A model generated the notes under the pieces. It had not been told where the DNA came from and did no database searches. It worked only from the letters and a program-made list of their open reading frames with translations. A DNA stretch of 64,000 nucleotides from Halichondria panicea (taxonomy: Eukaryota; Porifera; Demospongiae; Suberitida; Halichondriidae), in assembly GCF_963675165.1 (NCBI RefSeq), contig NC_087383.1, forward strand, positions 3,750,979 through 3,814,978, written 5' to 3'. The position numbers and the translations under genes were made by a program. The stretch's first letter is position 1, and each line of letters begins with the position of its first letter. Of this stretch, positions 20,169-59,400 are shown piece by piece.

Positions 20169-21530
20169 ATGAGTTCCTCAGCTAAGCCACAGGCACGACA
20201 AAGTGTCCAGTACAAAAAAAGACAGCCACCGAAAGTTAAACTGATCAAGCATCAGACGCTACCTCAAGCTCAAGCCACGAACAAAAACTGTCAGACAGCG
20301 CATTATGATATGGGAACACTATCCCCTAAGACCTAGTTTCACAGTACTCCAATTTGATATTGCCATGCCGGAAATATTGAATATGAGCCCAACATCAAAG
20401 CTGGCGATTCTCTGGTCATTCATTGCATTAAACAATCCCAAGTTGTAAAGATCATTGACCAGACTGATGAAGCATACAACATTCCGTTTTACTCAGCGGC
20501 TAAATTTGGCATCATTGGAAGTCCCCATGTATGGTTATCACCTACTACTGTTGCCTGCCTTGGAAAGTGTGGGAACCGAAGAGACGCTATAGCATATACA
20601 TATCTTTCAAGCAATTCTACTTACGATTTTCATTGCTATATCATTATCAATATAATTATTTTGCCTGCCTTGGAAACTGTGAGAAGAAACGCTATCTTTC
20701 AAGCAATTTGAAGTGCTAATTTTTAAAGATATAATACTGTATACAAAAGGGTTTCAGGAGGATTCAAGTGATTTGAGCTTACCTTCAGTATGACAGAAGA
20801 CCATGAATCGAACTTCATCTCGAAAGAATGATTGTGATGCTTTTTTGTCAGTTGACCATCACGATCAGGTGTGCAGCTGTATCCTTCCGAAATTTTGAAT
20901 ACACCTCACATAATTATGCTAGATATACCATGTCAAGCCCGACTATATTAATTTTGTTCCGAAATAATGTACAGCTCCTTGCTTGAAGATTTCACTGTTT
21001 AAACATAATTTTATACCCAAGCGCTTCTCCTGCTGTATAATATTATAGATCTAGCACTGGAGAGCTCATTGTAAAAACTCGTAGAATGGCGAATCCTTAG
21101 GTCCATGCATGCCGGTATCTATATATAGACTCTACCTGGCTTTGAGGCAACTTCTGCTACCAGTGACTATACCAAAACAAGGAGAGTCTCAGAGCATCAG
21201 CTCTGTATATTAAGACTATTGCTAAACATGCCAATTAAATTTTGTTCCTAGGTATCAGCATGCAATGCAGTGTCATGCACTTATTGCTGTAATTTGCGTG
21301 AAAAGTCATAGATACTATAATTATTATAAATCTAGTATCTATGGTGTGAGAGTGCCCCAAATACGTATACACTTTTATTACTGTCATGATTACTCTGATG
21401 GACATAATCTTCTGGAAACGTTGGGTATGCCCTCAACACAGAGATGCCTTTTCAATGGTATGGGTGGATGGTGAGGTACATTTCAATATACCTCAATGAA
21501 TTAAGAGGCACTCAAGAACTGGGAGTAAAC
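20169..21530 (+). pseudogene. Decayed copy of CABIT-SAM gene B
   Basis: Begins with ATG and the same N-terminus as the intact gene at 29185 (MSSSAKPQ ... LIKHQTLPQA), but a deletion and frameshift bring a stop at about 20334. Recognisable CABIT blocks follow out of frame ('catacaacattccgttttac', 'taaatttggcatcattgga' near 20474-20520), then a remnant of the second half near 20840-20900. The proline-rich exon is missing. A SAM-exon remnant lies at about 21410-21530 (TTGGGTATGCCCTCAACACAG; GTGGATGGTGAGGT). It sits next to the tail exon of the chimeric cadherin exactly as the intact gene B sits next to the Notch-ligand-like gene. Confidence 0.85.
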
Positions 21531-21703
21531 AATTAGGTTATTCTCAATACAACACGCAACCACAATCGCTCATTGTTTGTGTGTTTTCTATATATCTATC
21601 AATGGACAACTTAATTGTATGACACAGTACGGATATAGAAAGCATGCATGCATGACTGTTGTAGCAAATAATTATATTATACTGAGATCGTACAACGCTA
21701 ATT

Positions 21704-24700
21704 TTAAAATTTGGTTTCATCACATATTTCATCGTAAATGTATTGATAGATGTATTCCCCCTCGTCATTAGAGTTTTCTCTTACACTCAGCGTTGTACTG
21801 AAAGGGGTTGATGGTAGTGGCATATCAACAGCACTAATGTTTCTTTGTTCGAAAATGGTATCTGGTGTAGAAGTAGGATACATTTTCTCCACTGATCGAC
21901 CTGTATTTATAATCAGACAGAAGGATATAAAATTCCACAGCAACGTTTTGCTAGAGTAAATTGATAAGTCAGTGCTTATATAGAAAGGTATGTAATTTCC
22001 AAAAAAATTTTAACTCATCTTTACCAATCAATTTGCTAGTTACCTATTATCTGCCGTGATGTTCTCTTCCTCAAGATAGCACAGTTGATTATAAGCAGAA
22101 TGACAATACAGCCACTCACAAGCAGTAGACCTCCTCCAATGCCAGCAATGAGGGGAATCAGAGGCTCCGATACTGAATGAATACGTAATTGTAACGACCC
22201 AGATCAGTACGTACGTTAATTTGTTTCCAATTACCTGGATTGTCTGGGTCTGTTGGTATGGTTGTAGTAGGAGGCTCAGTATTACACGTGCTCACATTAC
22301 TGTTGCAAACACACTCGGCAGAAGGTGATTGCTCATCTACAGTTCTGGCCTCGCAGTGAGTACCCTCAGTACACTCAACGTTTGCACAGACGTCTTGCAT
22401 TAGTTTTACTTCACAGTTTTGACCGGAAAACCCTGATTCACAAACACAAGTATATATATTTGTGCCGTTCAAACAGAACCCTTGGCCACTGCAGTTTACA
22501 GATCCACAGTAATTTGGATCTGTATCCAGTACTTCAATGAGTACACGGGCAGCATCAAACCGAATAGGGCTACCAGCATCAGCACATTCTATGAATAGAA
22601 TTATATCATCAAATTGTCTTGTTGCCACGTCTCCTATCACAAAAATGTTGCCAGTGTTTATGTTGATGTCAAATAAATCGCTTGCATCGGATATGGAATA
22701 GCTTATCATAGCATTGGCTCCGAGATCGAAATCAGTGCAGGAGACATTTCCAATAATGGTTCCAAAAGTTTCATTTCCATTCAGAGGCCCATAGGTGTAC
22801 GTATCGGAAACAAATATTGGCTCATTGTCATTCTGATCCAGTATAGTGATGTTTACAAGATGAGATGACATTCGCCTATTCAAAATGTCCGCTGATTGGT
22901 CGGTGATGCGAATTTGGAAACTGTAAAAGTCAAACTCCTCCCTATCTAGTGTACCATTCACAAGAATTTGGCCTGAGGCTGTTACAGTAAAATCATCATC
23001 TAAAATGTCTCCGATAACTTCAAACACCACCACTCCATCCAGTCCATTATCATCATCAAAAAACTGCAACTGTATCACCTCACTTCTACGTACAGCATTT
23101 TCCTCAATTTCAAATGGTCCTGATGCAAAAGTCGGTGTGAACTCGTTAACAGGAGACACGAATACAGTAACCAATGTTGTCGCTTGTAGATTATGTATAT
23201 CAGTACAAGCTGCAGTTAGTATGTGGGCAGGGCTCATTTCATAGTCCAATGTCATTCCAGGAGAGAGTGTAATCACTCCAGTTTCCATATTGACAACGAA
23301 AATCCCACCATCATTCCCATCGAGTATACTGTATATCACATCATCATTGTTGTCAATATCGCTGCAGACAAGCTCAACAACAAAGGTGCCACTTTCTTGA
23401 TTCTCAAAGAGCGTTGAGCTGTATGGTGTGTTCTCGAATACTGGTGGAGCTGCGACAGCATCATCTACGGAGACCAACAGCTGGGCTGCTGAACTGAGTG
23501 GTTCAACACTGAGATCAGTAGCAACAACTTGATAGAAGTAGGAAGGAACAATGTCAAAATTAAGAGGAGCAGCTACAAAAACACACCCAGTGTCCTCTTG
23601 GATTCCAAAGGAGCCTTGGTTATTCTGTGGGGACACTAGAATTAGGGAGTAACTGATGGTACCATCTAAAGTGTCTGCTCTGTCCACATCAGTAGCCATT
23701 ATACAGTCTACAATGGTACCTAATGTAGCATTTTCCAGCACACGAAAACTGTAACTTGAAGGTGAGAAAATCGGTGCGTGTTCATTAGCAATCACTGAAT
23801 TGATGGCTAGACTGACTGTTGTAGATATTGGTGGCTGCCCACGATCAGAGCATGTGATATCCAGTACGATACTGCTAATCACTCGGGCTATCGTCCTGAC
23901 TACACCATCCTCGGTTATGATAAAATTATCAAAGAGACTTGTACTAGACAAGGAAAAGTTTGTTAATCCATTCAACCCATCATCAGCGTCTGTACATACA
24001 AAGACTGCTACATCCACATTGCTGCTGTTAGATTCAATTATGGTGATGATTGGTGGATTCTCTGGAGATATAATCGGGCTATTATCATTCACATCTCTGA
24101 TGAATATGTTGACAAGAGCACTGTCAGATCTCTCTGGACCAATCACAATACGATTTTCTGTAACTACTACTACCATACGATATTCACTAATTATTTCTCG
24201 ATCAAGGGGTGCACCAAGCGTAAGATCACCAGTGGTTGGTTCGATAAAGAAGAAACCAGGAGAGCTTTCGTTTTCAAGCCTATAGTTTAGTTGGTCTGAG
24301 TCAATGTCCACAGCTTCAATAGTGGCTACTATAGTACCTGTTGCCGTGTCTTCTGACAAAAAGATATTGATTGTCGTGTTTGTTATCATTGGAGGATTCG
24401 AATCATCTCTAAAGACAGTTACAAAGATGGTGGCATCATCGAAGAATGTTGGTACACCTAGATCGTCACACCTAAGAGCGAGTGTGTACGATTCCGTTGA
24501 TATGCCTTCTGGGAGGGTTAGCGCTCTATTTACGGTTATCTCACCTGTAATTAGATCAATACTGAACGCATCATCAGTGTTGCCTTCTGATATAGAAAAC
24601 CTAACTTCTCCATTAGCACCACTATCAGGATCACTACAGCTCAAATCTGCAATAGTTTCTCCGAATATAACAAGCTCACTGAGTTGTATTAAATGACTAG

Positions 24701-26777
24701 TTCCGTCAGCAAAAGATGGACGATTTGTATTTCCTTCGGTAATTTGAAGAACGACCAAAACATCATCAGTAAATTCAGAGTCAGTAACAAAGGCTGTGAA
24801 GCTTACGCTTGTCTCTGTTATGTTTAGTACAGAGTTAAAAAGTAGTAGTTCGCCAAGTGTATTGATGTCAACAAAACTGTTCGTTTGCAAGCTGTATGTA
24901 ATATCACCACCAAGGCCAACATCTATATCAGTTGCAGATATCCTTCCAATTACATATCGATTAGCAGGAGTGGTGCGAGATACGTTAAAAAAGTAGCTCC
25001 TCTGATCAAAGACAGGGAAATTATCGTTTTCTGGCACAATGTCTATCGTTACTATTGCTAAGTCCTCACGTCCATTATTATCATAGCAACGAATCTCAAA
25101 ACCATAATTCGTGGCTACCTCATAATCGAGCACACCTTGGAGTTGAATTTCACCTGTGCGAGTATCAATGTGAAACAAATCCGTGATTGTTGAAGAAGTG
25201 GTAACAATTTCAACGTGGTCCATGCCCAACTCTCCCCTTCCCCTGTCCACATCAGTACAGGACACATCGCTAGCACTCAGTATCACACTTCCAGTTAGGT
25301 AGGATTCAGGAAACATTCGCGTGTATCGATCTTCAGCAATAATCGGGTCAAACTCATTAACGGAAAGCACAAAAATTCGGAAATCAAAGTTATCGCACTG
25401 ATCACTGGGTGGAAACTCATCACAACCAACAATTGAAACAGCAAAGCGTCTGTACAATCCAGCAATCAAAGTAATACCATCCACATCATTATCCAAATTT
25501 TCTGTGAATGACAAATCACCTGATACCAAGTCAAGCAAGAAAGCTTCACTGTCTCCAGAATCGGGAATACTGTCATCCAATGTATACGTTATACTTCCAT
25601 CAGCACCAGCATCTGTATCTGTAAATAAAAACTTGTTACTAACTTCAGTTAAACTTGAGTTTCCTGTTGCTATAACAACACCTACGGTGACCGTTTCCGA
25701 AATTGCAACTGTACTTAGTCTTTGTACAATCACAGGCACTTGTTCATTTACTGGTAAAATTGCCACATCAACGCTTACAGTGCTGGATTGATTGCTCTCT
25801 GAGTTATCGTAACATGTGACCATGAAGGAATATGATGTTTGTGTCTCATAGTCAAGGTCAGCATTGACAGAGAAAGAGCCAGAAGCTTCGTCCAAGATAA
25901 GAGGACTGATACTACCAGTGCCTACTAGAGAGTAAGTTATTTAACTGGAGGCTGTGTCTGGATCAATGCATCTAGTCACTAGAAATCCTGCCGAAGGTCT
26001 TGGATAGTCTATACCAGCGACAATATTGTCGAGTACGGTTTCGTGTACAGCTGCATCGTATGTACCCAACTCGAAAGCCGGAGCAGTGTCATCGATATCT
26101 TCTACAGAAATTGTTACTCGTAGGTTTCTACCAACACCTTGATCAAAGGTGTTTGCTGCTCGTACAAGAAAATCAAACACAGTATTTTGCTCATAATCTA
26201 AAGCAGACTGCGAAGTGATCTCTCCAGTTTCTGAGTCGATGGCAAAAATACTAAACACCTCAGGGTCCAATGACTCAAAAGAATATTCAATCACTCCAAG
26301 GTTACCTCGATCTTCATCTGTAGCGTTCACAATTGTGATCAAGAAATTTAGCGGAAAATCTTCGCTAAGCGAGAGCTCGATTGCAGCATGAAGAAATTGT
26401 GGACTGAACTCATTTTCATAGATACGCGTCACTCTGAAGAAAGCTGAGGTTGAATCTGTACTATCACTTACGTCAAAACACTCGACGAAAGAGGAGAATG
26501 TACCAGTGGATATATTTAATGAATCAATGTTGAGCGCTACACCACCATTAGTTTCGCTTAAAGTAAGAAAGTTCACGTTGTCAGGGTTTAGAAATCGGTA
26601 GTTGACAATTCCACTAAAAGAGCAAAGAAGTGTGGCAATTGTATGACCCGTTGGTAAGTTTTGGTTGAATGTAATGTCGTAGTTGCTGCTGTTAAATTGT
26701 GGTGATGGTTGAGCAAGTAAACCTGTACAAAGCAAGTTAGTAAAAAGTGTGCAAGTAAAACCCTTCTACTGAACCAT
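21704..26777 (-). pseudogene. Chimeric cadherin-EGF-TM locus with two nonsense codons
   Basis: The large exon (26777-22235) repeats the start of the giant cadherin: EC repeats 1-8, then an in-frame jump to EC 21-25, then at about 22530 it continues with an EGF-type segment (NCSGQGFC ... CESGFSGQNC) that matches the Notch-ligand-like gene at 32350-32965. Two further exons with intact GT-AG borders encode the TM segment (22172-22044, GIGGGLLLVSGCIVILLI) and a 65-residue tail (21900-21704). The only ATG for the signal peptide is followed by TAG (26768-26766; GAG in the intact gene), and a second stop TAA lies at 25943-25941 (CAA in the intact gene). Between that stop and the TM exon the frame is open for about 1,235 codons. 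Most likely a very recent pseudogene; readthrough, sequencing error or an unseen alternative start are the alternatives. Confidence 0.85.
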
Positions 26778-27271
26778 TCGAATGATAATGGACACTTTTA
26801 TAGCCCAAATTAGTGTTTAACGTTCAAACTAATGGTCACTGTAACTGCTCTCGAAGTATCTTTATTCGGATGCACATTTGAATTACTTTTATGCCTTTGA
26901 CTCACATATACATACGTCTATCGCTTATCTGTAATTAAAACTACCCTTTAATAGATGAAGTACGTGTCAACTACGGGGTACCTGGCAAAATTAGCGTCAG
27001 AAATAGACAGACCGTCAGCGGTACTCCTTGCAACCAGTTCATACTTGGATTGCACTTGACCTAAAACAGTACAGCAGAGGTGGATTTTCATGTACAATCA
27101 TGGTTTTTGATACAAACGGCATCTCATACCCCTTGCACATTGCTAGGCCTCAATTGTCTTTTGTGTATGCACACTCACCATGTAAGAGGGGGGTCTCAAT
27201 GGACCTAGCTAGACAGCTGTCTTGGCAGAAGCTTTGGGTGGTTTGCACTTGGTTTTTATCTACTATTATTA

Positions 27272-27465
27272 CCGTATAGCGCGAAATTTTCGAGGGGCTT
27301 AATTTTCGCGGATTTCGTGGGTTGGAATTCTACACGAAAATTAAGTCCACCAAAAGTGTTGGTTAATATCCGGTAAGCAGTCATTCCGCGAACATTGTGC
27401 AACGAAATGGCTTTTAGAGGCCAATCCACGAAATATAAGTGCCTCGAAAATTTCGCGCTATACGG
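27272..27465. mobile_element. MITE, family A, well preserved
   Basis: 194 bp, flanked by TA on both sides (27270-27271 and 27466-27467). The ends CCGTATAGCGCGAAATTTTC and its reverse complement at the right end are near perfect over about 25 bp. No coding capacity. The corresponding position in the other copy of the duplication (about 40.9 kb) lacks it, so it probably inserted after the duplication. Confidence 0.85.
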
Positions 27466-27714
27466 TATGTCAAAGCAGCTTTAGGTGCATGCAAGGGATT
27501 ATGTAAGAAGATATCATTTCACACAAAAGTCCATGAATAGCATTAGTGCAAGCTAGATCTATACCACTGTAGAAGAGGAGAGACAAAACAAAACATTATG
27601 CACTGTCAGTGAAGCATTAAGTTAATATCATATCATAAGGGTTGCATATAATTATAGTCTACAACAAACAGTTTTGTTCTTCTGAGTCACTGTCATTGAT
27701 AGCAGCTATCCCAG

Positions 27715-28721: not shown

Positions 28722-28930
28722 CAGACAAAAAACTCACCAAATATTCTCCCCAAAAGCCTGCCATCCGTGATCACAACAAGCTTAACTACCGTCTACAGTT
28801 GTTTTGTTGATAAAGTACTCAAGAAGCCAATCAGTTTAGCTCCTGCAGTTCAACCGATGAAGACTACAAAATCCACGTCATCTTCTCCCAATCCAACACA
28901 GTCAGCTCAGTTCGTATCGATTTGTTTGGA
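28722..28930 (+). pseudogene. Fragment of CABIT-SAM proline-rich exon
   Basis: Resembles exon 2 of CABIT-SAM gene A at about 18280-18470: the block encoding KKPISLAPA and the serine-rich block TSSSPNPTQSAQ are both recognisable. The frame is open in part only, and neither CABIT nor SAM sequence is attached, so it is a fragment. It ends close to the point (about 28947) where the second duplicated block begins. Confidence 0.75.
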
Positions 28931-40612: not shown

Positions 40613-41436
40613 CTGCTATGAATGACAGTGACTCAGAAGACCACAGAACTATGTTGTAGACTATAATTATATGCAACCCTCATGGCATATTGATATTGGA
40701 CTTTTCAAGGAATCTAATTTTTATTGATAAACTTAATGCTTCAATGAGTGCATAATGTTCCGTTTTATCTCCCCTCTTCTATATGACATTCTGTCTTGCA
40801 CTGATGCTATTCATGTAAACACTCTGATATTCATGGACTTGTTTGTGTGAAATGATATCTTCTTACATAATCCCTTGCATGTGCTAGACCCACCCATTAC
40901 AGCTTGTAGAGTAGAGTTTCTAGCTACAGAAACCTAGCATATACAAGCTACCCAAAAAAGTCCTTCTGTCATAGGTAGGCCAAGACAGTGTCTACAATAT
41001 ATACAGGTCCATTGAGACCCTCCCTCCTTGGTGAGTGTGGTATGACATAATAAGTGAAAACACAATTGAGGCTCTACAAGTGCAGGCATTTAAAACTATG
41101 ATAGTGAATCACAGCACATACATACTGTTACACACATACATTGTTTATAGGTAGAGTGCAATCCAAGTATGAACTGGTTGCAAGGAGTACCGCTGACGGT
41201 CTGTCTATTTGTGACGCTACTTTTGCCAGGTACCCGTAGTTGACACGTACTTCAAAACGTAGTGTTAATTACAGATAAGCATCTAGACGTATGTACGTAA
41301 GTAAAAGAGTCAAAGGCATAATAGTAATACAAGTGTGCATGCATGTATTAACATCCGAATAAACATTGAACGTTTAAAACACTGACTTGGGCTATGTCAA
41401 GTGGCCATTATAATAGAGGAATTTTATTTCGTTCGG
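40613..41436. promoter_or_regulatory. Upstream region of the giant cadherin
   Basis: 824 bp between the IER3IP1 stop and the cadherin start. It must hold the cadherin promoter and the IER3IP1 3' end. It is duplicated in inverse orientation at 26778-27714. Blocks conserved between copies, such as 'gcaaccagttcatacttgg' and 'aggtccattgagaccc' (reverse complement in the other copy), are visible, but so young a duplication does not prove function. No core promoter motif identified. Confidence 0.5.
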
Positions 41437-44400
41437 ATGGTTCAAGAGAAGGGTTCTACTTTTATTGTGTGTACATTTTTTACTAGCTTGCTTTGTACAG
41501 GTTTACTTGCTCAACCATCACCACAATTTAATAGCAACTACAATATTACATTCAACCAAAACTTACCAACGGGTCATACAATTGCCACACTTCTTTGCTC
41601 TTTTAGTGGAGTTGTCAACTACCGATTTCTAAACCCTGACGACGTGAACTTTCTTACTTTAAGCGAAACTAATGGTGGTGTAGCGCTCAACATTGATGCA
41701 TTAAATATATCGACTGGTACATTCTCCTCTTTCGTTGAGTGTTTTGACGTAAGTGATAGTACAGATTCAACCTCAGCAATCTTCAGAGTGACACGTATCG
41801 ATGAAAATGAGTTCAGTCCACGATTTCTTCATGCTGCAATCGAGCTCTCGCTTAGTGAAGATTTTCCGCTAAATACCTTGATCACAATTGTGAACGCTAC
41901 AGATGAAGATCGAGGTAACCTTGGAGTGATTGAATATTCTTTCGAGTCATTGGACCCTGAGGTGTTTAGTATTTTTGCCATCAACTCAGAAACTGGAGAG
42001 ATCACTTCGCAGTCTGCTTTAGATTATGAGCAAAATACTGTGTTTGATTTTCTTGTACGAGCAGCAAACACTTTTGATCAAGGTGTTGGTAGAAACCTAC
42101 GAGTAACAATTTCTGTAGAAGATATTGATGATACTGCTCCGACTTTCGAGTTGGGTACATATGATGTAGCTGTACACGAAACCGTACTCGACAGTATTGT
42201 CGCTGGTATAGACTATCCAAGACCTTCGGCAGGATTTCTAGTGACTAGATGCATTGATCCAGACACAGCCTCCAGTCAAATAACCTACTCTCTAGTAGGC
42301 ACTGGTAGTATCAGTCCTCTTATCTTGGACGAAGCTTCTGGCTCTTTCTCTGTCAATGCTGACCTTGACTATGAGACACAAACATCGTATTCCTTCATGG
42401 TCACATGTTACGATAACTCAGAGAGCAATCAATCCAGCACTGTAAGCGTTGATGTGGCAATCTTACCAGTAAATGAACAAGTGCCTGTGATTGTACAAAG
42501 ACTAAGTACAGTTGTAATTTCGGAAACGGTAACCGTAGGTGTTGTTATAGCAACAGGAAACTCAAGTTTAGCTGAAGTTAGTAACAAGTTTCTATTTACA
42601 GATACAGATGCTGGTGCTGATGGAAGCATAACGTATACATTGGATGATGTTATTCCCGGTTCTGGAGACAGTGAAGCTTTCTTGCTTGACTTGGTATCAG
42701 GTGATTTGTCATTCACAGAAAATTTGGATAATGATGTGGATGGTATTACTTTGATTGCTGGATTGTATAGACGCTTTGCTATTTCGATTGTTGGTTGTGA
42801 TGAATTTCCACCCAGTGATCAGTGCAATAACTTTGATTTCCAAATTTTTGTGCTTTCCGTTAATGAGTTTGACCCGATTATTGCTGAAGAACGATACACG
42901 CGAATGTTTCCTGAATCCTACCTAACTGGAAGTGTGATACTGAGTGCTAGCGATGTGTCCTGTACTGATGCGGACAGGGGAAGGGGAGAGTTGGGCATGG
43001 ACCATGTTGAAATTGTTACCACTTCTTCAACAATCACAGATTTGTTTCACATTGATACTCGCACAGGTGAAATTCAACTCCAAGGTGTGCTTGATTACGA
43101 GGTAGCCACGAATTATGGTTTTGAGATTCGTTGCTATGATAATAATGGACGTGAAGACTTAGCAATAGTAACGATAGACATTGTGCCAGAAAACGATAAT
43201 TTCCCTGTCTTTGATCAGAGGAGCTACTTTTTTAACGTATCTCGCACCACTCCTGCTAATCGATATGTAATTGGAAGGATATCTGCAACTGACATAGATG
43301 TTGGCCTTGGTGGTGATATTACATACAGCTTGCAAACGAACGGTTTTGTTGACATCAATACACTTGGCGAACTACTACTTTTCAACTCTGTACTGAACAT
43401 AACAGAGACAAGCGTAAGCTTCACAGCCTTTGTTACTGACTCTGAATTTACTGATGATGTTTTGGTCGTTCTTCAAATTACTGAAGGAAATACAAATCGT
43501 CCATCTTTTGCTGACGGAACTAGTGATTCAATACAACTCAGTGAGCTTGTTATGTTCGGAGAAACTGTTGCAGATTTGAGCTGTAGTGATCCTGATAGTG
43601 GTGCTAATGGAGAAGTTAGGTTTTCTATATCAGAAGGCAACACTGATGATGCGTTCAGTATTGATCCAATTACAGGTGAGATAACCGTGAATAGAGCGCT
43701 AACCCTCCCAGAAGGCACATCAACGGAATCGTACACACTCGCTCTTAGGTGTGACGATCTAGGTGTACCAACATTCTTCGATGATGCCACCATTTTTGTA
43801 ACTGTCTTTAGAGATGATTCGAATCCTCCAATGATAACAAACACGACAATCAATATTTTTTTGTCGGAAGACACGGCAACAGGTACTATAGTAGCCACTA
43901 TTGAAGCTGTGGACATTGACTCAGACCAACTAAACTATAGGCTTGAAAACGAAAGCTCTCCTGGTTTCTTCTTTATCGAACCAACCACTGGTGATCTTAC
44001 GCTTGGTGCACCCCTTGATCGAGAAATAATTAGTGAATATCGTATGGTAGTAGTAGTTACAGAAAATCGTATTGTGATTGGTCCCGAGAGATCTGACAGT
44101 GCTCTTGTCAACATATTCATCAGAGATGTGAATGACAATAATCCAACATGTACTCGTACTTTGAACAATGCTGATGTTGATGAAACGGCTGGTGTAGGCA
44201 CGCTTATACTTCAGCTGCAATGTAATGATCCTGACTTGAATGAGAATGGGCTTCTCACGTACACACTTGTAGAGGATTTCAATGTTCTGAGTATTGATTC
44301 CGGTACCGGAGTGATAACTCTTGGAAATCTTCTAAACAATACAGAGAGCACCCTTCTCCCCGCAACTGTGATAGTATCAGATTCTGGAATTTTGGAGACT

Positions 44401-47400
44401 CGCCAGATTCAGATCCAAGTAACAGTTTCTATTATTTCTCGAAATAACAACCAACCTACTTTTCAGAATTTGCCTATGACCATAAACGTTAGCGAGGCTC
44501 AATTGTTAGGAGATGTTTTCTTCACTGTTGTTGCAACTGATTCTGATCGTGGAAGCTTTGGACAAATTATATACTCAATTGCTGGAGGAAATGAGAACAC
44601 TTTCAGCATCATATCCAACACTGGTGGGCTATCTTTGGTAGAGAAATTAAACTTCTTTTCTCAGGCTGTATATTCACTCAATATTTCTGCTAGCGATACA
44701 GATTTTGACTCTTACGAGACTCTCACGATCAATGTACTCGATGCTAATGAATACAACCCTGTGTGTGAATCAATTCAGGAAAGTTTCTCACTTGCTGAGA
44801 GTATCGAACCTAACGCCCTTGTGTTTCAACAACTCTCTTGCTCTGATAATGATGAAGGGAGCAACGGTCAAATTGTGTATACTATTGAGTCCGGAAATAT
44901 TGAAAATATATTTGAAATTCAAACTGATGGCACTGTGGCAACTACTGATGTGCTTGATTATGAAGCTGTACAGGAATATAATCTTGACGTCCTGGTTTCT
45001 GATGGAGGCTCTCCGCCACGTTCTACAATGGTTGCGATTCGTGTAACCGTCACAGCGGTGAATGAATTTCCACCAGTCTTCACTCAAGCACTGTATGAAA
45101 TGAACATTGTAGAACATAGCGATATCTCAACATCTGTGCTTCAGGCTATGGCTTCAGATCAAGATTTAGCATCACATCGAGATGGGGAGATAGCCTTTTC
45201 TATCAATGGCCCTGATGCACGTTTCTTCACAATTGCTAGCAGTGGAATTATCCGTATCGCGAGTGCAATAGACCGAGAATTGACAGGTAACTTACTAATA
45301 TTCACTGTTACCGCTACAGACCAGGCAGTCATTCCCCAAAGCAGCTCAGCACTGATAAACATCACAGTAGTAGATCTTGATGATAATTCACCCGTATTCA
45401 CGACTGATCTGTACGTATTCGTAGTGAATACAACAGCCACGACAGGTACTCAAGTAGGATCCACACTTTGTACTGACATAGACGCACCAAGCAATGCTCG
45501 AATTTCATATTCATTCACAGAAGAGGGAGAACACAGCTCATTTTTCGATATCAGACAAAATGGTAGGATCGAACTTATACAAGATGTTCCAATAAACAGC
45601 ATTTTTACTTTCGATATTGTTTGCACAGGACCTAGTCCACTAAATAGATCTGACTCCGCTACTGTCAGTGTGAGAGTGCTACTCAATTCCACAATCACTT
45701 TTCATCCAGACAGTACTTATGATGCGAACATTAATGAAAATTCAGCTTCTGGAACTGAGATACTGGTATTAAATGCTACCGCAAGTACTGGAGCAATTCT
45801 TAAATTTAATCAGATAAATCTTCTTAGCCAGTTTCGGGTTGATGAATCTAGCGGCAGCGTTCAATTGACAGGTGCTCTTGACTTTGAGACCACTGAGTCG
45901 TATAGCTTGAGAGTTGAAGCCACTGACAATGGTGACCCTCCAAACACAAACGAAGCTATTGTCCATGTGACTGTTATCAACCTCAACGATCGAGAACCCA
46001 GAATCACAACGGAACCGACTGAAATAGTGAGAGAAGAAGAGAACAACATCGATGTTGAGACTCTCGATCAGTACCTTTGCTCAGATGGGGATAGTGGAGA
46101 TTTTGGAGATGTGTCGTTTAGGATTGCTGATGGAGATACCAATAATATATTCTCAATAACAGCACCAGGAATGCTACTACTTGTAGGGGATCTTGATTAT
46201 GAGATTGCTACACACTACACTCTGCGAATAGTATGTGAAGACGGAGGAAATCCGCCACTATCGGATGAGATAACAGTTCCGATAAGAATCTTACCAGTGA
46301 ACGATAATCCTCCAATTTTCAACACAGTGCAACCAATTACCGTAGATGAGAACACGCCTATTGGAACCAATGTTGGCTTACCAATAGCAGCAACCGATCA
46401 AGACAGCCCTCCTCACAATACAATCTCCTACTCTATATCACCTACTGACTCGCCCTTCAGCATCTCACCGACAACTGGCCAACTAACGCTTCAAACCTCT
46501 CTCGATTTTGAAGAAGCATCTGAATACATGCTCACCATTCGAGCTGACAATGATGAACGTATCACTACTGCTAATCTTACTATCACTGTTAGCGACGTCA
46601 ATGATAATATTCCCGTATTTTCTCGCTTTCTCTATTTTGGAACAATTCCTGAATCAGCAAATATTGGAGATATGGTCTTTCTCGTTGTTTGTACAGACAG
46701 AGACTCGGGGGCTAATGGTGACATTATGTTCACACTCGTAGGGGACTTTCCATTTCAAATTGAAAGTAATGGAGCTCTTACTGTGGCTGGAACTCTCGAC
46801 CATGAAGCTCAGTCATTATACAGATTTGGAATCACTTGCAGTGATGGTATTTTCTCTGCTTCCGCTGACATAATCGTGATTGTAGTTGATGTGGATGAGC
46901 ACATGCCAGTATTCGTTGCACATGTGTACAATTTCAGTGTCTCTGAAGACGATGGTATCAATACTGAGATAGGAACGGTGGAAGCTATAGATCAAGATGG
47001 ACTTATAGCTGGTGTAGTAATGTATGAGTTTCCAGATACTGACGTACCTTTCGAAGTTAACGTGGACAGTGGTGTTCTAACACTAACGTCCATAATTGAC
47101 TACGAAGAACAGCAGATGTATACTTTCTTCGTAGAAGCGTTTGATGTTGCAAACAATCGAGACACTGCACTTGTTATGGTCGAGATAAACAACGTGAACG
47201 ACAACAATCCTTCTTTTTCTGACAATTTGTATTTCTTTAGCGTTCGAGAATCTTCTCCTCAAAACACACCAGTTGGAATGGTTGAGTGTATGGATGTAGA
47301 TGATCAGACAGAAGGTATTCCTGTGCAGTACTCACTTGGTTTTCAAGACGTTCCGTTTCATATAGATTCCACATCTGGCATGCTAGTTGTCAATGGAGTG

Positions 47401-50400
47401 GTTGATTTCGAAACTACGGCACGCTATATGATTCTAGCATTCTGTAATGACTCTGGTAACATAGAAGTCAGCACTGATATCACTATTGACTTGGAGCCTT
47501 TCAATGACTTTGCTCCAAGTTTTGTAGAGCCGTCCAGTGTTAATGCATCAGAGTTGGAAGTAGCCGAGAATTTGGCGGTGGGAAACACTTTGGCACGTTT
47601 AATTGCTGTTGATGCCGACCAAGGACCGCAAGACCATAGAGCGGTGGTGTTTAGTATAATTGATGGCAATGGTGATAATGTGTTCGTTATTACCAGTAGT
47701 TTATTACGATTGCAATTACCTTTAGATCGAGAGCAAGTATCAGAATATTTACTGGTTCTAAGAGCAGAGAATGTCATTTCACCGGATGATACTAGCAATT
47801 CCATCTCACTCTTTTCAATTGCTACATACAGGATTATAGTAACGGACATCAATGACAACAGCCCGATTATATCTCCGGAAAATCCACCAGTCATCACCCT
47901 AATTGAATCTAACAGCAGCAATGTGGATGTAGCGGTCTTTGTATGTACAGACGCTGATGATGGATTGAATGGATTAACAAACTTTTCCTTGTCTAGCACA
48001 AGTCTCTTTGATAATTTTATCATAACTGAGAATGGTGTAGTCAGGACGATAGCCCGAGTGATTAACAGTATTGTACTGGATATCACATGCTCTGATCGTG
48101 GACAGCCACCAAAATCTACAACAGTCAGTCTAGCCATCAATTCGGTGATCATTAATGAACACGCACCGATTTTCTCATTGTCAAGTTACAGTTTTCGTGT
48201 GCTGGAAAATGCTACATTAGGTACCATTGTAGACTGTGTAATGGCTACTGATATGGACAGAGCAGACACTTTAGATGGTACCATCAGTTACTCCCTAATT
48301 CTAGTGTCCCCACAGAATAACCAAGGCTCCTTTGGAATCCAAGAGGACACTGGGTGTGTTTTTGTAGCTGCTCCTCTTAATTTTGACATTGTTCCTTCCT
48401 ACTTCTATCAAGTTGTTGCTACTGATCTCAGTGTTGAACCACTCAGTTCAACAGCCCAGCTATTGGTCTCCATAGATGATGCTGTCGCAGCTCCACCAGT
48501 ATTCGAGAATATACCATACAGCTCAACGCTTTTTGAGAATCAAGAAAGTGGCACCTTTGTTGTTGAGCTTGTCTGCAGTGATATTGACGACAATGATGAT
48601 GTGCTATACAGTATACTCGATGGGAATGTTGATGGGATTTTCGTTGTCAATATGGAAACTGGAGTGATTACACTCTCTCCTGGAATGACATTGGACTATG
48701 AAATGAGCCCTACCCACATACTAACTGCAGCTTGTACTGATATACATAATCTACAAGCGACAACATTTGTTAATGTTATCGTGTCTCCTGTTAACGAGTT
48801 CACACCGACTTTTGCATCAGGACCATTTGAAATTGAGGAAAATGCTGTACGTAGAAGTGAGGTGATACAGTTGCAGTTTTTTGATGATGATAATGGACTG
48901 GATGGAGTGGTGGTGTTTGAAGTTATCGGAGACATTTTAGATGATGATTTTACTGTAACAGCCTCAGGCCAAATTCTTGTGAATGGTACACTGGATAGGG
49001 AGGAGTTCGACTTTTACAGTTTCCAAGTTCGCATCACCGACCAATCAGCGGACCTTTTGAATAGACGAATGTCATCACATCTTGTAAACATCACTATACT
49101 GGATCAGAATGACAATAAGCCAATATTTGCTTTCGATACGTACACCTATGGGCCTCTGAATGGAAATGAAACCGTTGGAACCATTGTTGGAAACGTCTCC
49201 TGCACTGATTTTGATCTCGGAGCCAATGCTATGATAAGTTATTCAATATCCGATGCAAGCGATTTATTTGACGTTAACGTAAACACTGGCAACATTTTTG
49301 TGATAGGAAACCTGGCAACAAGACAATTTGATGACATAATCCTATTCATAGACTGTGCTGATGCTGGTAATCCTATTCGGTCTGATGCTGCCCGTGCACT
49401 CATTGAAATACAGGAAGTCAATCGTAATGCCCCAGAATTCCTCAACAGCTCTTATTTGGTTCAAGTGCCTGAGGATACACAGTTACTGAATGAAGTGATC
49501 CTAACTGTACAAGCTGTGGATTCAGATGATGGTGTGAATGGAGAAGTAAGGTACTCATTAGTTGATAGTGTCGATACAACATTCTTCATAAATGAAGACA
49601 CAGGTGATATATCTATTCTCAGATCTCTGGATGTTGAGACTAGAGCATTGTATGTGCTGACTGTAGTTGCAAGAGATGGTGCTATTGATAGTAATACTCA
49701 GTTGATGTCCAAAGTGAATGTTACTATTGAAGTGACGGGTGTGAACGAGTTCACTCCAGTCTGCTTTGATCCGATTTACGTTACAATCATCAATCATACG
49801 ACTATTGGACCAATCATAGATTTTCGATGTACTGATGGTGACATTGGTATGGATGGTGCTCTGTCATACACAATATGGAGTGGAAATGATAACGGCTTAT
49901 TCAATGTCAGTGAAGATGGATCTTTCATTGTGACTACTTTCATATTACCAGACCCAAATTTCGAGCAATTTGTGCTTCAGATATCTGTGACAGACATGGG
50001 AATGCCATCACTTCAAATCACAATTGAAGCTATCTTGATATACTCCTTCGATAATCTGGACACTCCGACATTCGAATCGCAACTTTACTCTTTCAATGTG
50101 TCTGAGAGTTCAATGGTAGGCACAATAATTGGTCGTGTGGTAGCATCAGATTCTGATCCTGGATTGCAAGGGCAAGTTGTCTACTCCGTAACTGGTGTAG
50201 GGAGTTTTGAAGTAGACCCTGTAAGTGGAGAACTGTTTATTCGTCGACCTCTCGACTGGGAGAGTACACCCACCCACACTTTCACAGTCATGGCTGAAGA
50301 TAGCGACCCTTTAGCTCCTCTTAGGGGTGTGACCACCGTGACAATTAATGTTATCAACGAGAACGATAATATACCCCAATGTGAGAGTATGTTCTATACT

Positions 50401-53400
50401 GTGGAGATATTTAGCAATGCGACTATTGATGAGACAGTGGTGTTATTGAATTGTGAAGATGCTGATCAAACACCTATACAGTTTGAACTCTCGAGTGGAC
50501 AAAAATCTCCATTTGGAGTAGACCCCATCACAGGGAGAGTGTATATTGCTGCCCCTGTCACACCTTCTACTGTTACTGCACTGGATGTAAATGTGATTGG
50601 GAATGGTGGAGAGTTCACACAAATAACTATTAGTATTCAAGTGATATTCATCAATACTCAGCCCCCTGTGTTCGTCGAACGTCAGTTCTCCATCTCCATA
50701 CCAGAAAGTACACCACTCCTCACAGTGATTGGATATATTTCTGCCACAGACCCAGACAGTCATCAAGCTGATCTCATTTACTTCATAGAAGACCCTTTGC
50801 CTCCTAGCGAACTATATATTAACCCCACCAATGGTGGAATTATACTAACCAGCCCCCTTGACTTTGAAACAACAGCACAATACTCGTACAATGTATTTGT
50901 TATGGACGCAGGTAGTTTTGACGAGTCATATCAGCTAGTGGACATGGCAACTCTCACTGTTAATGTAACAAACACCAACGACAACTCTCCCATCCTTGAC
51001 AGTGGTGGTGTGTATGGAGTAACTGTCATGGAGACCACCTCAATAGGAGCAAGTCTTGTGAATATAAGTTGTACCGATGACGACGCCTCACCCTTTTCCT
51101 CCCCTCAAGTCTCCGCTAATCTCACTGCTACTCCATTCAGACTAGTACCATTAGAAGATCTCTACAGCATTGAGGTTTCACAGCAACTATCTGGTCCTTC
51201 ATCTTTCATTTTCGATATACTCTGCACTGACAACGGAAATATATCATCTGAGGGTCAAGTCTATATATTTGTGCCTGAGCCATTGGCGCCAGTTTTCACA
51301 GAACCACGCTATGACTGGATACTTAGTGAAACTGGAGAAACAGGAGAGCAATACAGTAACATACAGGCATCTAGTAATGATGGTTCAGCAATCACGTATT
51401 CAATTACTGATGGCAATGATAACAACATATTCTATATCGAGCCTGACACTGGTGTCATCATTCTTGTTATAAGTCTCGACTTTGAGATGCAGACCAGCCA
51501 TGGTTTAGTTGTGAGGGCAGTTGACGGCAGTGGAAGGCAATCAAGTGTTTTACTTCTAGTGACGATTGTGGACGAAAATGATGAAGTACCACTAACTCCG
51601 CCTTCTGCCCTGCTCTCAGTTAGGCAAAATGCTCCAGTTGGATTTCCGATTGGTGTCCTACAATGCACAGACCTGGACTCGATAGCGAACACAACATTCA
51701 GTTTTGATCCACCCAACACTCTATTTAGCGTTGATAACTTGGGTATTGTGAGACTAGAAGGTGCGCTAACAGATACTCCAGTATATTCACTACCCGTGCT
51801 ATGTTTCGATATAACTCGCCCTGAGGACGTCTCTATGGGAATTATTACCATTGAAGTGGAGTTTGTTAATGTCTATCCACCAATCTTCGGATTCGATTCT
51901 TACATATTCTCTATACCGGAAGATGCTCCTCCTCTATCCTTTGTTGGTCAGATTTCGGCAACTGATAGAGATGTGGGTAGCTTTGGTGAGATTGCATACA
52001 TGATTTTTGACGGCAATCCAGATCAGTTTTTCATCGATGCTATCACAGGTCGTATTGGCGTTCTTACCTCAGTCGATCGTGAGACGATAGACACGTACGT
52101 TCTTAATATTGCAGCTATTGATGGAGGGGTGGCTGCCCTTCCTGGGACCAGATTGAACGAAACAACTCTAGTGACTATCAGAATAGCGGATATTAATGAT
52201 AACCATCCTATTCCACAGCAATTTACATACATTCAGTCCATTTCGACGAATCACACACTACTTTCGCCTGTACTCACAGTCACATGCACAGATGCAGATC
52301 TGTTGGATAACGGTGTCATTGATTACTCCTTAGAACAAGACGGTCAAAATTTTGTAATACAGAGTAATGGTACTGTTCTGCTTGCAAGAGAGCAGACAAC
52401 ACAAGCAGTTCACAATTTTCAAGTAGTGTGTACAGATCGTGGTGTCAATAGACTTTCGTCCTCAGCTCAAGTTACGGTGACCGTTGACATTGCGTCTCTT
52501 ATTGCACCTGTCTTTGATCTGCAAGAATATAACATATCTATCGATGAAGATGTCGCCATTCACACTTCAATTCTGCAAGTGAATGCTGTCCCAAGCAATC
52601 CTGACATTGAAGTGGTCTATTCTATTGTTGGCGGGAACGAGGGAGGTGTCTTTACTGTTGATCCTCTGTTCGGCAACATTTTAGTGATAGATGAGCTAGA
52701 TGCTGCATTTCAACAAGAGTATGTGTTAACTGTGAGTGCTACAATTGCAGGCAGAGCAAGCATCTCTTCTCTTGTCAGCGTGTTTATAACTGTCACTGAC
52801 TTGAATGATAACATCCCCCAGTTTTCCAGCCCATTCTACTCTGGAAACGTCACTGAAGGAGCAAGCATTTCCACTCCCATTGTACAGCTAATGTGTACAG
52901 ACTCCGATCTAAATACAGACATCAGCTACTCGATACTATACTCGCTAAACATCTTCAATATCACAGATGAAGGTTTGATTTACGTGAACAGTGTTATTGA
53001 TTTTGAGAAGAATACTTCTCACGCATTTGAAGTGACTTGTACTGACGGAGGCAGTTCCCCTCACACAGTAAGGACGTCTGTTAGAATTAATGTTGATCCA
53101 GTCAATGAGTTTGTCCCGACGTTCTCACAAGCAATTTTCAACTTCACTGCGTCTGAGAACAGTTTTGGAGCGCAAATTGGTATTCTCGAAGCAATTGATG
53201 ACGATACTGGATTCCATGGTGATGTGAGGTACTTTTTGCAAGACCCTGGTAACAATTCGGTGGTATTAATAAATTCGTTGACTGGAGAGCTAATTGTGGC
53301 AAATAATCTTGACTATGAGGTGCAAAGAGAGTGGGATCTCAGCGTAATAGCTGTTGATGGAGGTGGTCTGGAGTCACACGCCATAGTCCACATCGAGGTA

Positions 53401-56400
53401 CTCAACTTGAATGACGTTATTCCTGTAATGTCTCCAATAGCAACAATCGCTACTATCAATTTTGACAGCCCGATGGGCCAACCTATTCAGTCATACACTT
53501 GTATCGATGGAGATGGCAGTGAAACATCCTTGTCTATAAACAGTGGGAACAGTCTCGGTCTTTTTGAACTGAACTCAGACAATGTTTTAGTCTGGGCAGG
53601 ACAAGGCAACAGCTTGGATGCAAATGCAGTTATCTCACTGAACCTGCTATGTACTGATAGTGAACTATCCAGCCAGCGTGCAACTGGTCATATAGCAATT
53701 AGGATACAAGTCACTGATGCTCAACCACCTGTATTCTCCCAGTCTGTCTTTCAGAGAAACATTTCAGAAAATGCTGAAGTTGGTACAGTCGTACTCACTG
53801 TGTTTGCTACTAGTGAGAGTATGAACACTTCTTTTTCTTTCTTCAATTTGCCAGCAGGTTTCCCATTTGAAATAGATTCCAAAACCGGGGAGGTGTCTCT
53901 GACGTCTTCACTCAATCGTGAGGCTGAGTCGCTGTACACATTCTTTGTAGGTGCTAGCGATGTGGTTACTTCTGGAGTAGGTGTTGTGTTGGTAGAGATA
54001 CGAGTGGAGGACTCAAATGATAACGAACCGACAATATTCCTATCTCAAGGAACGATAACCCTCCGTGAAGATACCAGCATAAACATGGAATTCTTCAGGC
54101 TGATGTGTACTGATAGGGACTCAGGGATAAATGGAGAGATAACATTCAACATCACAAGTGAACACAGCGATACTTTTACTGTATCTAGAATTAACTCACA
54201 AATTGCTGCACTTTCGCTGCAAAGAAATCTTGACTTTGAAACACAGACGCAGTACACTTTAGAAATAGAATGCAGAGATGGCGGTTCTCCATCCTTAGCA
54301 GATTCTGCAACACTTGTTATAGTTGTCAGTGGTGTGAATGAATTCAGTCCAACGTTTTCAGAGCCTGGCTATTTCTTCCAGATCAATGAAACTTCTTTGC
54401 CTGGCAGTCTGGTTGGCACCGTGATAACTAGTGATTCAGATGCCGGTGAAGATGGTGTATTTGTGTACCAGATTGAACCAACACAACAGTCTTCATACTT
54501 CACAATAAATAGGATTGGAGAAATTTACACTACCAGCTTACCACTCAATTCTAGTGTGACATCGCAGTTGTCATTTTTTGTTAGCGCAATTGATACTGGC
54601 AATTATGAGGATACTGTCCTTGTGACGGTTCAGGTGGTGGACGTGAACACACCTCCAATACTTTCAGACTTTGGAACATACTTTGTCACTCTTACCACAA
54701 ACCAAACAATACCTGAGATTATCCTGGAAGTGTTCTGTTATGATATTGACACCACCTACAATGCAGATTTAACTTTAGAGATTCTGAATCGACCAGAAGG
54801 GGTTGCCGTTGAAACAATTACACAATCAGGACGTGTTACAGCTACTTTCACATTGGCCTCATTCTTACCAGCTGGCACGTACGACATCTTTATTACATGC
54901 TCTGATAACGGAACCGAAGCTTTGTCAGTGACTTCTATAGCGACCATTCAGGTTCAAGGAGCCAACACACCCCCTACATTCCATCACGGTTCAATTTCTG
55001 TGAGTATACTAGAAAATGCAATTGAAGGTATTCTCCTCACCGCTGTTAATGCAACGGACACTGAGGGTAACGTCACTTATGCTATTACTGGCGGAACTGG
55101 AAGAGGGGCATTTACAATTGATTCTCAAACTGGTGAAATCCGTCTCTTACTCGCTCTAAATCATGAACTTACCTCTAATTATTTTCTGGCTGTGAATGCT
55201 TTCGACAATTCGATTGTCAATCCTTTATCAGCTCGAATAAATATCAATATTGATGTAATCAACGTCAATGATGAGTATCCAGTAATCATGCCACAAGGAA
55301 TCGAGAATATCGTTATCAATGAAGATCAACAATTGGCCACTCCTATTCAAACCTACACATGTGTTGATCCAGACGGAAGTAGCAATGTAAGATTCAGCTT
55401 TTCTCCAGACAATTCCCCATTCACTTTGACTCAAAACGGTGAAATTGTGCTGCACAACCCTGTTGATTTTGAAATCCAAGACAGCTACACATTGGAAATT
55501 ACATGCACCGACACAGAAATCCGGCTTGGTTCAGGTGTGACATTGTCCTCCTCTGTAACACTTATAGTAGTGGTTGTCCCTGTCAATTCTCATGCCCCCG
55601 TATTTCAACCACCATTCGAGTTATTCACACCAGAAGACACTGCACCTGGTATTGTAATTGGACGACTAATAGCTACAGATAGGGACTTGAGGGGACAAGT
55701 AACCTTCTCATCAGACTCACGTACTGATCTGTTTCTCGTTGAGAGTCAAACTGGGAATGTAGTGCTGGTCGGTACGCTTGACTTTGAGTCTGTGAACAGA
55801 CAGTATACTTTGATCGTTGAAGCAAGTGATAACGATGAGACGTTTGGTGTTACGGGTAAGACTGCTACTGCTAGTATCACCGTGTCTGTAACTGATATAA
55901 ACGATAATTCACCTGTATGCCAACCTTTCATCAGTCTTCAGTTACCAACCGGAGATTACTCTCTCACCTCCTTCGCTCAGCTATCTTGCACTGATGAAGA
56001 CTCCGGTAATAATTCTTTACTTGTGTATACTATTCAAGCACCAGTACAAAGTGATGATGAGGTTTTCATTATTGAGAACACTGGTGAATTGTTCTTGAGA
56101 GGTTCTTTCAATACACCAGGAGCTGTTGTATTTACTGTACTTGTCCGAGATTCTGGTGCTGTTTCTCAGTCGACACAAACAACAGTTGCACTTTTGTTTC
56201 AATCTAATATTACCAACGCAATACGATTTAACCCAAGTCAGTTCAATGTTACTATATCTGAAAGCATTGACATTGGCACGTTGATATTCAGTGGTGTTCT
56301 GATTCGTGATGCACTGGTTAATCCAACATCGAATGAAGTAACTTTTGGTCTAGAACTAAGTGTTGATAACGAGGGTGCCTTTGTGATAGATCCCACCACC

Positions 56401-59400
56401 GGAGACGTTACTCTTATTGACAACAGGAACTTAGACTACGAATCAAACAAGAAACAGTTTACCGTCATTTTAAATGCAATAGTGAATGCAGCTACTGTCA
56501 ACTCTGCCATTCTTCTAGTATCACTAGAAGACTTTAATGACAACAAACCAGTGTTTAGCCAAACTGTGTACACAGCGGAAATACTTGAAAATCAACCTGC
56601 AGGCATTTCTCTCCTCCAAGTAATGGCAACTGACATCGATTCAGGAATGAATAGTATTATCCGATACTCTACTACCAGTTCTGATTTCACGGTAGACTTA
56701 ATTAGTGGTGAAGTAACCTCCCTAGTGTCATTTGATCGTGAAACAAACGAACGATACTCAATCATTGTCAAAGCTATGGATCTGGGCTCACCACGTCTCA
56801 ATTCCACCGCACTGATAACTATTGTGATTCTTGATGAAAATGATCAACCTCCAGTCTTCAGATCATCACTTTATATTATTGATATTGACAACCTGACACC
56901 TCCTATTCAAAATATCCTAACTCTTGAAGTCACGGACAATGATGCCAACAGTTCTCTTCGTTACGAGCTACTAACGACTGATTCAGAGATACATGATCTG
57001 TTTGTTGTGGATGTATTGGATGGTATAGTGCGAAGAGGTTCAAGTGAATTTTCGGCAGATCACAGAGACAGATACAATTTCACTGTTGAAGTTAGCGATG
57101 GAATATTTGAGGACACCACCACTGTCATTGTGTATGTGGCATCTGTTACAACTGACACTGTTGTCTTTGCCGAAAATGTAGAAGGCCTTCGTTATAATGT
57201 GAGAGAATTTCTCATTCTTCAAGACTTCCAAACTTCAAGCCCATCTTACGAAATTGTCGGAGGTGACGTGTTTGATGAATTCTCTGTTTTGTTGAATGGA
57301 ATGGTGTTAGTTAATGATATACTCGACAGAGAGAGAATACCTGAATATGTTTTGACCATTCATATTACGGATAATACTACGCAAGTGAATGTGAATGTAT
57401 ACCTTACAGTAATTGTGAAAGATGCCAATGACAATACACCTACTTTCCCTATTGATCAATTCACATTCACGCTACCTGAAGGAACGTACCAAGATGACCA
57501 TAGTATTGGATTTATCACAGCTACTGATCTAGATGAACCTGGCACGAATGCAGCCACCATTGTATTCAGCATTGTTGGAAGCTTAATTGGAACCGCAGAT
57601 GAATATTCAATTCGATCTCAAACTGGAGAATTGTTTGTGAAAGAAGGTTCTACTTTAGACTATGAAAGATTCCAGAATATTACTCTTGTGGTCCGAGCCC
57701 GTGATTTGGGTGAGCCAAGTGCTAAAGTTAATTCAGTAATCGTGGTCCTGTTTTTGACTGATATCAATGACAACGATCCTGAGTTTGTCCCAGTCGATGT
57801 GGTGGAATACATCGTCCTTCTCGGGAAGGAAGACGTACTTTCTAACACACGTATAAACATTATTGTAGCCATACTGCCCAAGAACATTCAAAGTAAGGCA
57901 AACAGATTTGCATTCACTGATCCCGACACTTCAAGCAATGTCACTGCATCGTTGATCAATACTTCAAAAAACAATTATTTCAGACTCGAGCAAAATTTCG
58001 CGGAAAATACAGCGATTCTGTTATCCAATGAGAAGATATCAGCCGCAGAAACAAATGATGTCATATCCCTACAGATAGCACTATCAGATGAGCCAAACGA
58101 ACAAAATCCTATCATCAGAAACATAACCGTGTATTTCACCGACACTGTCCCTGTAACTCCTAGTATTGGACCACTGACTCCGACTGTCCCATTCTTTCAG
58201 TCTGAAATTGGGATTGCTGTGATTGTTGTGATTTGCATGCTCATCCTTGCTCTGCTTTCAATCTTCCTTTGTATGTGTTGCTATTGCTACTTGAGATTGA
58301 GAAGAGAGAAAGACCCACTCAGAAATGTGTAAGTTATGCTCACATGTGCATGGTGTAGATAGCTTTTGCATTCGATATAATTATTATGAGTGGCCATGGT
58401 GTTGATCAAGTCAATTATGCCTCAGGCGTAGGATTAGGGGGTAAAACTGATTGTGTGTGTGTGTAGTGTGTGTCCGTCTGTTTTTGTATGCAGGCCCTAT
58501 TCTGGTTTTTGCTGCTCTAAGTATTATTACTAGCGGATTCTTGTGTTACAGCTAGTGGTGCATTATTGTTTATGACAATATAGATCTATAATTACGTCAT
58601 GCTATCAAATAGATACGTCTACTCATTTACTGCAGGGATCGTATGATCACAGTAGCACAAAGACTGAACACTGAGACAGACAGGAAAGGGAAAAAGTCTT
58701 ATGGCCGCCCCATGAACTACTTTGGCTACTCCGATCTTGATCCTTTGGACTTTCCGGAATATTCTACACGTAAGTTTCAACACTAAAGAAACATGCTGCT
58801 CTATCTTATAATGTGTTTTTTATAATGTGTGACATTCATTCTTGTTTCGGAATTCTTTCTGCGCAGAAGACCCAGACACTAACTTGCTGTATTCACCGAA
58901 TATCAATGGAGAATTTGAATCCTCGTTCATGGTGAGTGCATACAATCATGTGATACAATTAAGCTATATTAAATATAAAACATGGGCTACTAAAATGCTT
59001 CGAGACAATTATTTTGGCAGCACTATAAGATTATTCCAGAGTTTTTTGTCAATTGTGCCCGTTTCCACCTATGCAAAGTCTCTTCTAGAACAAGTATGTA
59101 GATATATAACATATGCATACAAATATTACTTTCTGTACTGCTTTTCTACTTACTCCTTAGGGTGAGGACTATGATACAGAAATGGCAGACTTGGTGGATC
59201 AGTTTGATCCTTCTACTGACACATCCGTCCTCTCGTCCTTTCCTATGGAGGACACAAACAGCGACACCAGTCGTGGGTACATGATGGGCCCGGTGTTAAA
59301 AGCCATGCTGGAAGAGTGGGACAAGGGAGATGAAATGCTCGTCAAAAGTAAGAAGAAAAGGAGAAAAACGAAAGAAAAACAACCTGTAAGCCAGAAAGAA

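Follow-up and report, generated by a model that had tools for sequence, protein, structure and literature searches.

In a window of 64,000 nucleotides from the sponge Halichondria panicea (contig NC_087383.1, positions 3,750,979 to 3,814,978), the minus-strand locus at 21704-27042 is probably, with a probability that we put at roughly 0.6, a young chimeric gene with a very recent null allele. An inverted and shortened copy of a giant cadherin gene is joined there to a copy of the epidermal growth factor (EGF), transmembrane (TM) and tail exons of a Notch-ligand-like gene, and the protein would likely terminate within the third cadherin repeat, at a single in-frame TAA. The fusion of the two copies in one reading frame is genuine. 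Its parts and its two donors, in coordinates of the window, are as follows:

26982..27042, minus strand: predicted exon 1, with a signal peptide recognized by eye (MNWLQGVPLTVCLFLTLILPG) and the donor site CCAG/GTACCC
22235..26722, minus strand: predicted exon 2, with about 13 cadherin repeats and the EGF region, and one TAA inside
25941..25943, minus strand: the in-frame TAA, codon 281; a glutamine in the giant cadherin and in database proteins P0026, P0027, P0028 and P0035
24080..26722, minus strand: cadherin block 1, an inverted copy of 41501-44140
24080..24089, minus strand: internal deletion junction, joining parental 44140 to 47851-47860 inside a conserved DVNDN linker common to both sides
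22525..24089, minus strand: cadherin block 2, an inverted copy of 47851-49415
22514..22524, minus strand: fusion junction, 11 nucleotides (nt) left between the two copy alignments, which neither parent clearly matches, with a cadherin domain on one side and an EGF on the other
22235..22513, minus strand: EGF segment, a copy of 32350-32628 with six-cysteine EGF spacing
22044..22172, minus strand: TM exon, a copy of 32116-32244 with a hydrophobic segment recognized by eye
21704..21900, minus strand: cytoplasmic tail exon, a copy of 31727-31944 that ends in ...YIYQYIYDEICDETKF and a stop
41169..58332, plus strand: donor 1, the giant cadherin, with predicted exons 41169-41229 and 41501-58332 and 5,630 amino acids
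31727..34232, minus strand: donor 2, the Notch-ligand-like gene, with predicted exons 34194-34232, 33795-34133, 32350-32965, 32116-32244 and 31727-31944 and 446 amino acids

The first-pass annotation of this DNA had described cadherin repeats of the same kind as those of the giant cadherin, and this part is indeed a copy of it, 94-97% identical to the gene at 41-58 kb and inverted. A chance match is excluded by 1,565 nt aligned at 95.5% identity and a 3,029-column alignment at 94.3%. In block 1, 73 of 2,679 nt differ over 893 codon pairs, which begin in the predicted intron at ATG 26777 and end at 24096; in block 2, 70 of 1,563 nt differ without a gap. The translated exon matches the cadherin superfamily (PF00028, E=9.1e-104), with nine stretches after the stop and one before it. 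The count of about 13 repeats was made from linker motifs, dropping one of 13 motif matches that lies inside a repeat and adding the end of the last repeat. Calcium-type motifs (DVNDN, DQNDN, PENDN and LDRE/LDYE) are present, if not in every repeat. The upstream flank of the giant was partly copied too, reaching about 27.8 kb.

Compared with the giant, the chimera has lost 3,720 bp between the two blocks, exactly 1,240 codons, in frame. The closest database relatives of the giant, P0026-P0028, are full-sized (5,621-5,643 residues), and P0026 has the 1,240 residues missing from the chimera; the short form is therefore the derived one. At about 22.53 kb the frame passes from cadherin into EGF ('LIEVLDTDPNYCGSVNC'), as the first-pass annotation had proposed, and it does so in the linker after a cadherin repeat: the last cadherin domain before the junction covers profile positions 8-93 of 93, and the EGF after it covers 1-31 of 32. 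The same annotation had taken the EGF, TM and tail exons to be those of the neighbouring ligand gene. They are copies of the neighbour's exons but form a separate set, the neighbour keeping its own at 31727-32628. Its statement that the splice sites of the last exons are intact holds for all three introns of the chimera, which are GT-AG, as are 8 of 8 introns in the models of the chimera, the giant and the ligand gene. All length differences between the coding sequence of the chimera and its donors are multiples of three. The segments thus trace to two parental genes with introns kept, as in chimeras made by DNA duplication.

An assembly artefact, in which cadherin and ligand haplotigs were misjoined, is another account of the junction; we consider it very improbable. 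Of 4,185 coding nt aligned between chimera and giant, 137 are different, as are 50 of 594 in the alignment with the ligand gene, and the 5' flank and intron of the chimera carry indels of their own, so that an assembly error appears unlikely. At the protein level, 65 of 1,396 aligned residues differ between chimera and giant, versus 47 of 4,213 between the giant and P0026 outside the duplication, and both donors are still present in the same window. Because the donors lie together here and the shortened copy is the derived one, the fresh recombination of modules that had been claimed is supported. The claim has to be corrected in three respects: a stop interrupts the frame of this copy; only the EGF, TM and tail moved; and the recombination of adhesion and ligand-gene modules, which had been presented as an example from an early animal lineage, was, we infer, recent and confined to one lineage, and so does not sample early animal evolution.

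The start of the gene also had to be revised. The locus had been taken to begin at ATG 26777. We rejected this start: its fourth codon is TAG, it probably lies in an intron, and a conserved exon upstream provides a signal peptide and an in-frame splice. The same TAG, considered as a second disabling mutation, was dropped together with that start. Exon 1 is identical to 41169-41229 of the giant at 59 of 61 nt, within flanks that are more diverged, and joins in frame, by GT-AG, to the acceptor before 26722. The predicted protein has 1,624 positions, of which 1,623 are residues and one is the interrupted codon. At the interrupted codon, all four aligned relatives (P0026, P0027, P0028 and P0035) have a glutamine, as does the giant. 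The frame is therefore not that of an intact gene: the TAA at codon 281 would likely end the protein at residue 280 of 1,623, within the third repeat, and the predicted product is a secreted fragment of the signal peptide and about 2.5 repeats, unless decay of the mRNA leaves no product at all. The TAA, the upstream exon 1, the 3,720-bp deletion and the separate EGF-TM-tail copy all go beyond what the first-pass annotation had noticed.

The part acquired from the ligand gene is limited to EGF, TM and tail. A Pfam scan found no match to the MNNL and DSL domains in exon 2 of the chimera, and the N-terminal, DSL-like region of the ligand gene was not transferred. Because this is the receptor-binding part, a canonical Notch ligand role is unlikely, and the chimera would present an adhesion ectodomain on a new stalk, TM segment and tail. 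The tail is tyrosine-rich (GEYIYQYIYDE), with tyrosine motifs of the YQYI type, whose function is putative. The Pfam scan of the extracellular exon gave no laminin G match at E<=0.1.

Several comparisons suggest that the cadherin part was maintained after it was copied. Over 1,394 cadherin codon pairs, the ratio of nonsynonymous to synonymous rates (dN/dS) between chimera and giant is 0.376, with a dS of 0.063. A common dN/dS fits better than a model in which the chimera is neutral and the giant is set at 0.2 (likelihood ratio (LR) 6.75, nominal p=0.009; p=0.034 with the giant at 0.1 and p=0.002 at 0.3), in a comparison that assumes equal branch times and whose models are not strictly nested. 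The cadherin coding sequence, about 4.2 kb, contains one 3-bp difference between the two genes, which we place in the giant, since P0026 has the residue and thus the state of the chimera; no indel in this sequence is assignable to the chimera. In noncoding sequence, intron 1 has 14 gap openings over 229 aligned bases, and the main alignment of the 5' flank has 12 over 299 (26 over 528 in total), a rate that stands for these two alignments, a third and short one (38 columns, 2 gaps) being uncounted and the unalignable flank not represented. A rate ten times lower would still predict about 10 indels on one neutral branch. On these codon and indel comparisons, the cadherin frame looks selectively maintained and neutrality is disfavoured.

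The EGF-TM-tail part is more diverged (dS 0.133), and either its duplication is older or the part itself evolves faster. In the EGF exon, dN/dS is 0.27, which is below 1 (LR 5.18) and not distinguishable from 0.5 (LR 1.21). The TM-tail part is without clear constraint, and the tail gives no evidence of it.

A number of observations weigh against a young gene that was maintained until the stop arose. For the TM and tail exons dN/dS is 0.89, not distinguishable from 1 (LR 0.09), and the tail departs from that of the ligand gene at its C-terminus and in two internal length differences that keep the frame, changes not assigned to either copy. The EGF matches score below the Pfam curated cut-offs. 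The difference of the cadherin dN/dS from 0.5 is borderline: the LR is 2.56 over both blocks, 4.12 in block 1 and 0.04 in block 2. The stop count alone is compatible with neutrality: neutral simulation at half of dS gives 2.2 expected stops and P(at most 1)=0.36, with 0.67 at a quarter of dS and 0.06 at all of it. When P0027 serves as outgroup, the chimera shows no significant excess of changes over the giant (23 versus 15, p=0.19; 12 versus 7, p=0.25, where P0027 and P0028 agree). Gene conversion from the giant could mimic the evidence of constraint. A relative-rate test with P0026 as outgroup (47 versus 18, p=0.0003) was set aside, as site patterns fail to place P0026 outside the chimera-giant pair, and a branch split of dN/dS was set aside on the same grounds.

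Conversion is also central to an account in which the locus has been a pseudogene since birth, never fully translated, with its coding part held similar to the giant by exchange. Sites polarized by P0027 group giant with P0026 six times, chimera with giant five times and chimera with P0026 twice; because these groupings conflict, the duplication may be close in age to the P0026 split or its signal mixed by conversion. In block 2, giant and P0026 differ at 22 of 517 residues, an excess over the 47 of 4,213 outside the duplication (Fisher p=1.9e-6); in block 1 they differ at 16 of 878, where the excess is not significant (p=0.09). The differences cluster at 48847-49398 (giant residues 2470-2653), within the duplicated block and close to its 3' boundary, which may be a trace of exchange between the copies. 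Together with this hint of exchange, the nonsense codon, the degraded partial copy of a CABIT-like gene next to the locus, the intron and flank, which are more diverged than the coding sequence, and the TM-tail ratio would all fit a pseudogene. We nevertheless regard it as improbable, since it is at odds with the absence of a chimera-assignable indel in about 4.2 kb, with the poorer fit of a neutral chimera when branch times are equal and, although 0.5 is also compatible, with the ratio below 1 in the EGF exon, which comes from the other donor.

The opposite account, a functional chimeric receptor gene whose TAA is an error, a minor allele or spliced out, with intact alleles encoding a cadherin-EGF-TM protein of about 1,620 residues, strikes us as rather unlikely. 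The signal-peptide exon, splice sites, frame, TM segment and tail are otherwise intact, and the selection and indel evidence from the cadherin part is in line with it; yet the assembled copy does carry the TAA, TM and tail are without clear constraint, a transposon-like insertion lies upstream of exon 1 (see below), and no close relative was found among the 25 proteins matched at E<=0.001. It is likewise doubtful that intact alleles of a new receptor, with the ectodomain of the giant cadherin and the tail of the Notch-ligand gene, segregate beside null alleles and are kept by selection. If they do, the birth of a new cell-recognition receptor could be watched in a living population.

Under the preferred reading, a young chimera with a very recent null allele, the locus probably arose as follows. 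A tandem duplication would have copied the 3' end of the ligand gene and a piece of the CABIT-like gene next to it; the 5' end of the giant cadherin and the flank upstream of it would have been copied in inverted orientation; and this inverted copy would have been placed upstream of the already duplicated ligand 3' end, the two meeting in the linker between domains. Until the stop arose, the product would likely have been a single-pass receptor of about 13 cadherin repeats, binding through its cadherin ectodomain and probably anchored and signalling through the tyrosine-rich tail of the ligand gene, without the Notch-binding N-terminal domains. The stop would have been acquired recently, so that a young gene is probably seen here in the course of being silenced. 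Domain shuffling is commonly invoked for the origin of many adhesion and signalling proteins of animals, in events usually too old to be seen; in this case the two donors, both junctions and the frame can be read in a stretch of about 37 kb, and ordinary resequencing and RNA data could show whether the new gene is kept, polymorphic or lost.

The genome, 131 Mb in 39 contigs with the window on contig C7, was searched for other copies of the fusion. A DNA search with 21600-23000 gave four matches, confined to the chimera locus and the two donors. With the TM-tail protein, the only match outside the window was at 28% identity (E 0.23), and with the junction protein, matches reaching well across the junction elsewhere were weak, at 28-36% identity (150 of 358 candidates scored). 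One protein-database search, which takes proteins 0.55-1.75 times the query length and would miss short fragments, gave 25 proteins at E<=0.001 of 2,429 candidates and no close fusion relative; the best identities were up to 34% for cadherin-type proteins and 35% for a crumbs-like EGF match. No long open frame like the chimera was found in the protein database, although a 98% relative of the giant, from a 1.7-Mb contig, is present there; this weakly suggests that the fusion is absent in the source of that relative. For the ligand exon, three proteins were found of 17 candidates, among them P0146 (98% identical) and P0147 (79%); in this alignment, five residues in the first EGF are private to the chimera and one, further on, is private to the ligand gene. 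In the titles and abstract openings examined, which are part of those retrieved, no cadherin fused to a Delta-like tail is named.

More distant relatives of the giant are the Amphimedon 'protocadherin Fat 4-like' P0091 (30% identity, 5,831 amino acids), a Nematostella protein (28%, 7,285 amino acids, with a higher bit score than Amphimedon) and vertebrate Fat4. Several more open frames for giant cadherins, running for about 3,500-7,948 codons with no stop, lie on contigs C16, C3 and C9. The ligand gene encodes a predicted protein with a signal peptide and a TM segment (both by eye), an N-terminal region, EGFs and a tail. Pfam gives EGF-type and related matches only, with no PF01414 or MNNL match, whereas phmmer aligns residues 67-289 with DLL4 (E 4.7e-9); we therefore call the predicted protein Delta-like with a diverged DSL region. 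Its N-terminal part has 68 genome matches at E<=0.001, most of them to the N-terminal exon and many clustered (C6, C12, C14 and C15), which suggests a lineage-specific expansion of Delta-like genes. A separate search gave 26 DSL (PF01414) matches genome-wide.

The duplication of the ligand gene took along part of the adjacent gene, pieces of 18286-20995 resembling 28729-29939. Two related open-frame regions lie at 16429-18837 and 29161-31158, and 18286-20995 would be a degraded partial copy of the second, made in the same tandem duplication as the EGF-TM-tail part. The frame at 16429-17760 has a sub-threshold CABIT match (E 0.031) and the frame at 29161-30465 has none; the label 'CABIT-like' is a lead. 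Upstream of exon 1 stands an insertion resembling a miniature inverted-repeat transposable element (MITE):

27260..27475, strand not assigned: MITE-like insertion with inverted ends, roughly 200 bp

It has at least 112 genome matches (40 of 1,568 candidates scored), and no counterpart was seen in the flank of the giant where this aligns. Elsewhere in the window, 13636-14697 is an ordinary gene with F-box and FBA domains (PF04300, E=2.1e-43), and the AATAAA count, 71 against a chance mean of 60.75, is about as expected.

The chimera resembles several known systems. Like the giant Fat4-like cadherins (P0026-P0028 and Amphimedon P0091), it has a signal peptide and cadherin repeats, its ectodomain being a copy of a gene of this family; unlike them, it lacks an internal run of repeats (1,240 residues) and all that follows the junction, and ends in the EGF, TM and tail of another gene. 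The Fat and CELSR atypical cadherins have cadherin repeats, then EGF, then a transmembrane segment, and the end of P0002 has repeats followed by EGFs. The chimera shares this order of repeats, EGF and TM, but it has no laminin G match in its extracellular exon and one predicted TM exon, and its EGF came from a ligand-like gene rather than being inherited from Fat or CELSR. With Delta-type Notch ligands it has in common the membrane-proximal EGF, TM and tail, derived from a Delta-like gene that matches DLL4, whereas the N-terminal and DSL-like regions were not received. In Hedgling of choanoflagellates, sponges and cnidarians (PMC4054682), cadherin repeats are likewise joined to a signalling-protein module; that combination is conserved across these groups, whereas the chimera fusion is seen in one genome only. 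Chimeric genes made by duplication and cadherin-EGF-TM proteins are thus both kinds already known, to which the chimera adds a member.

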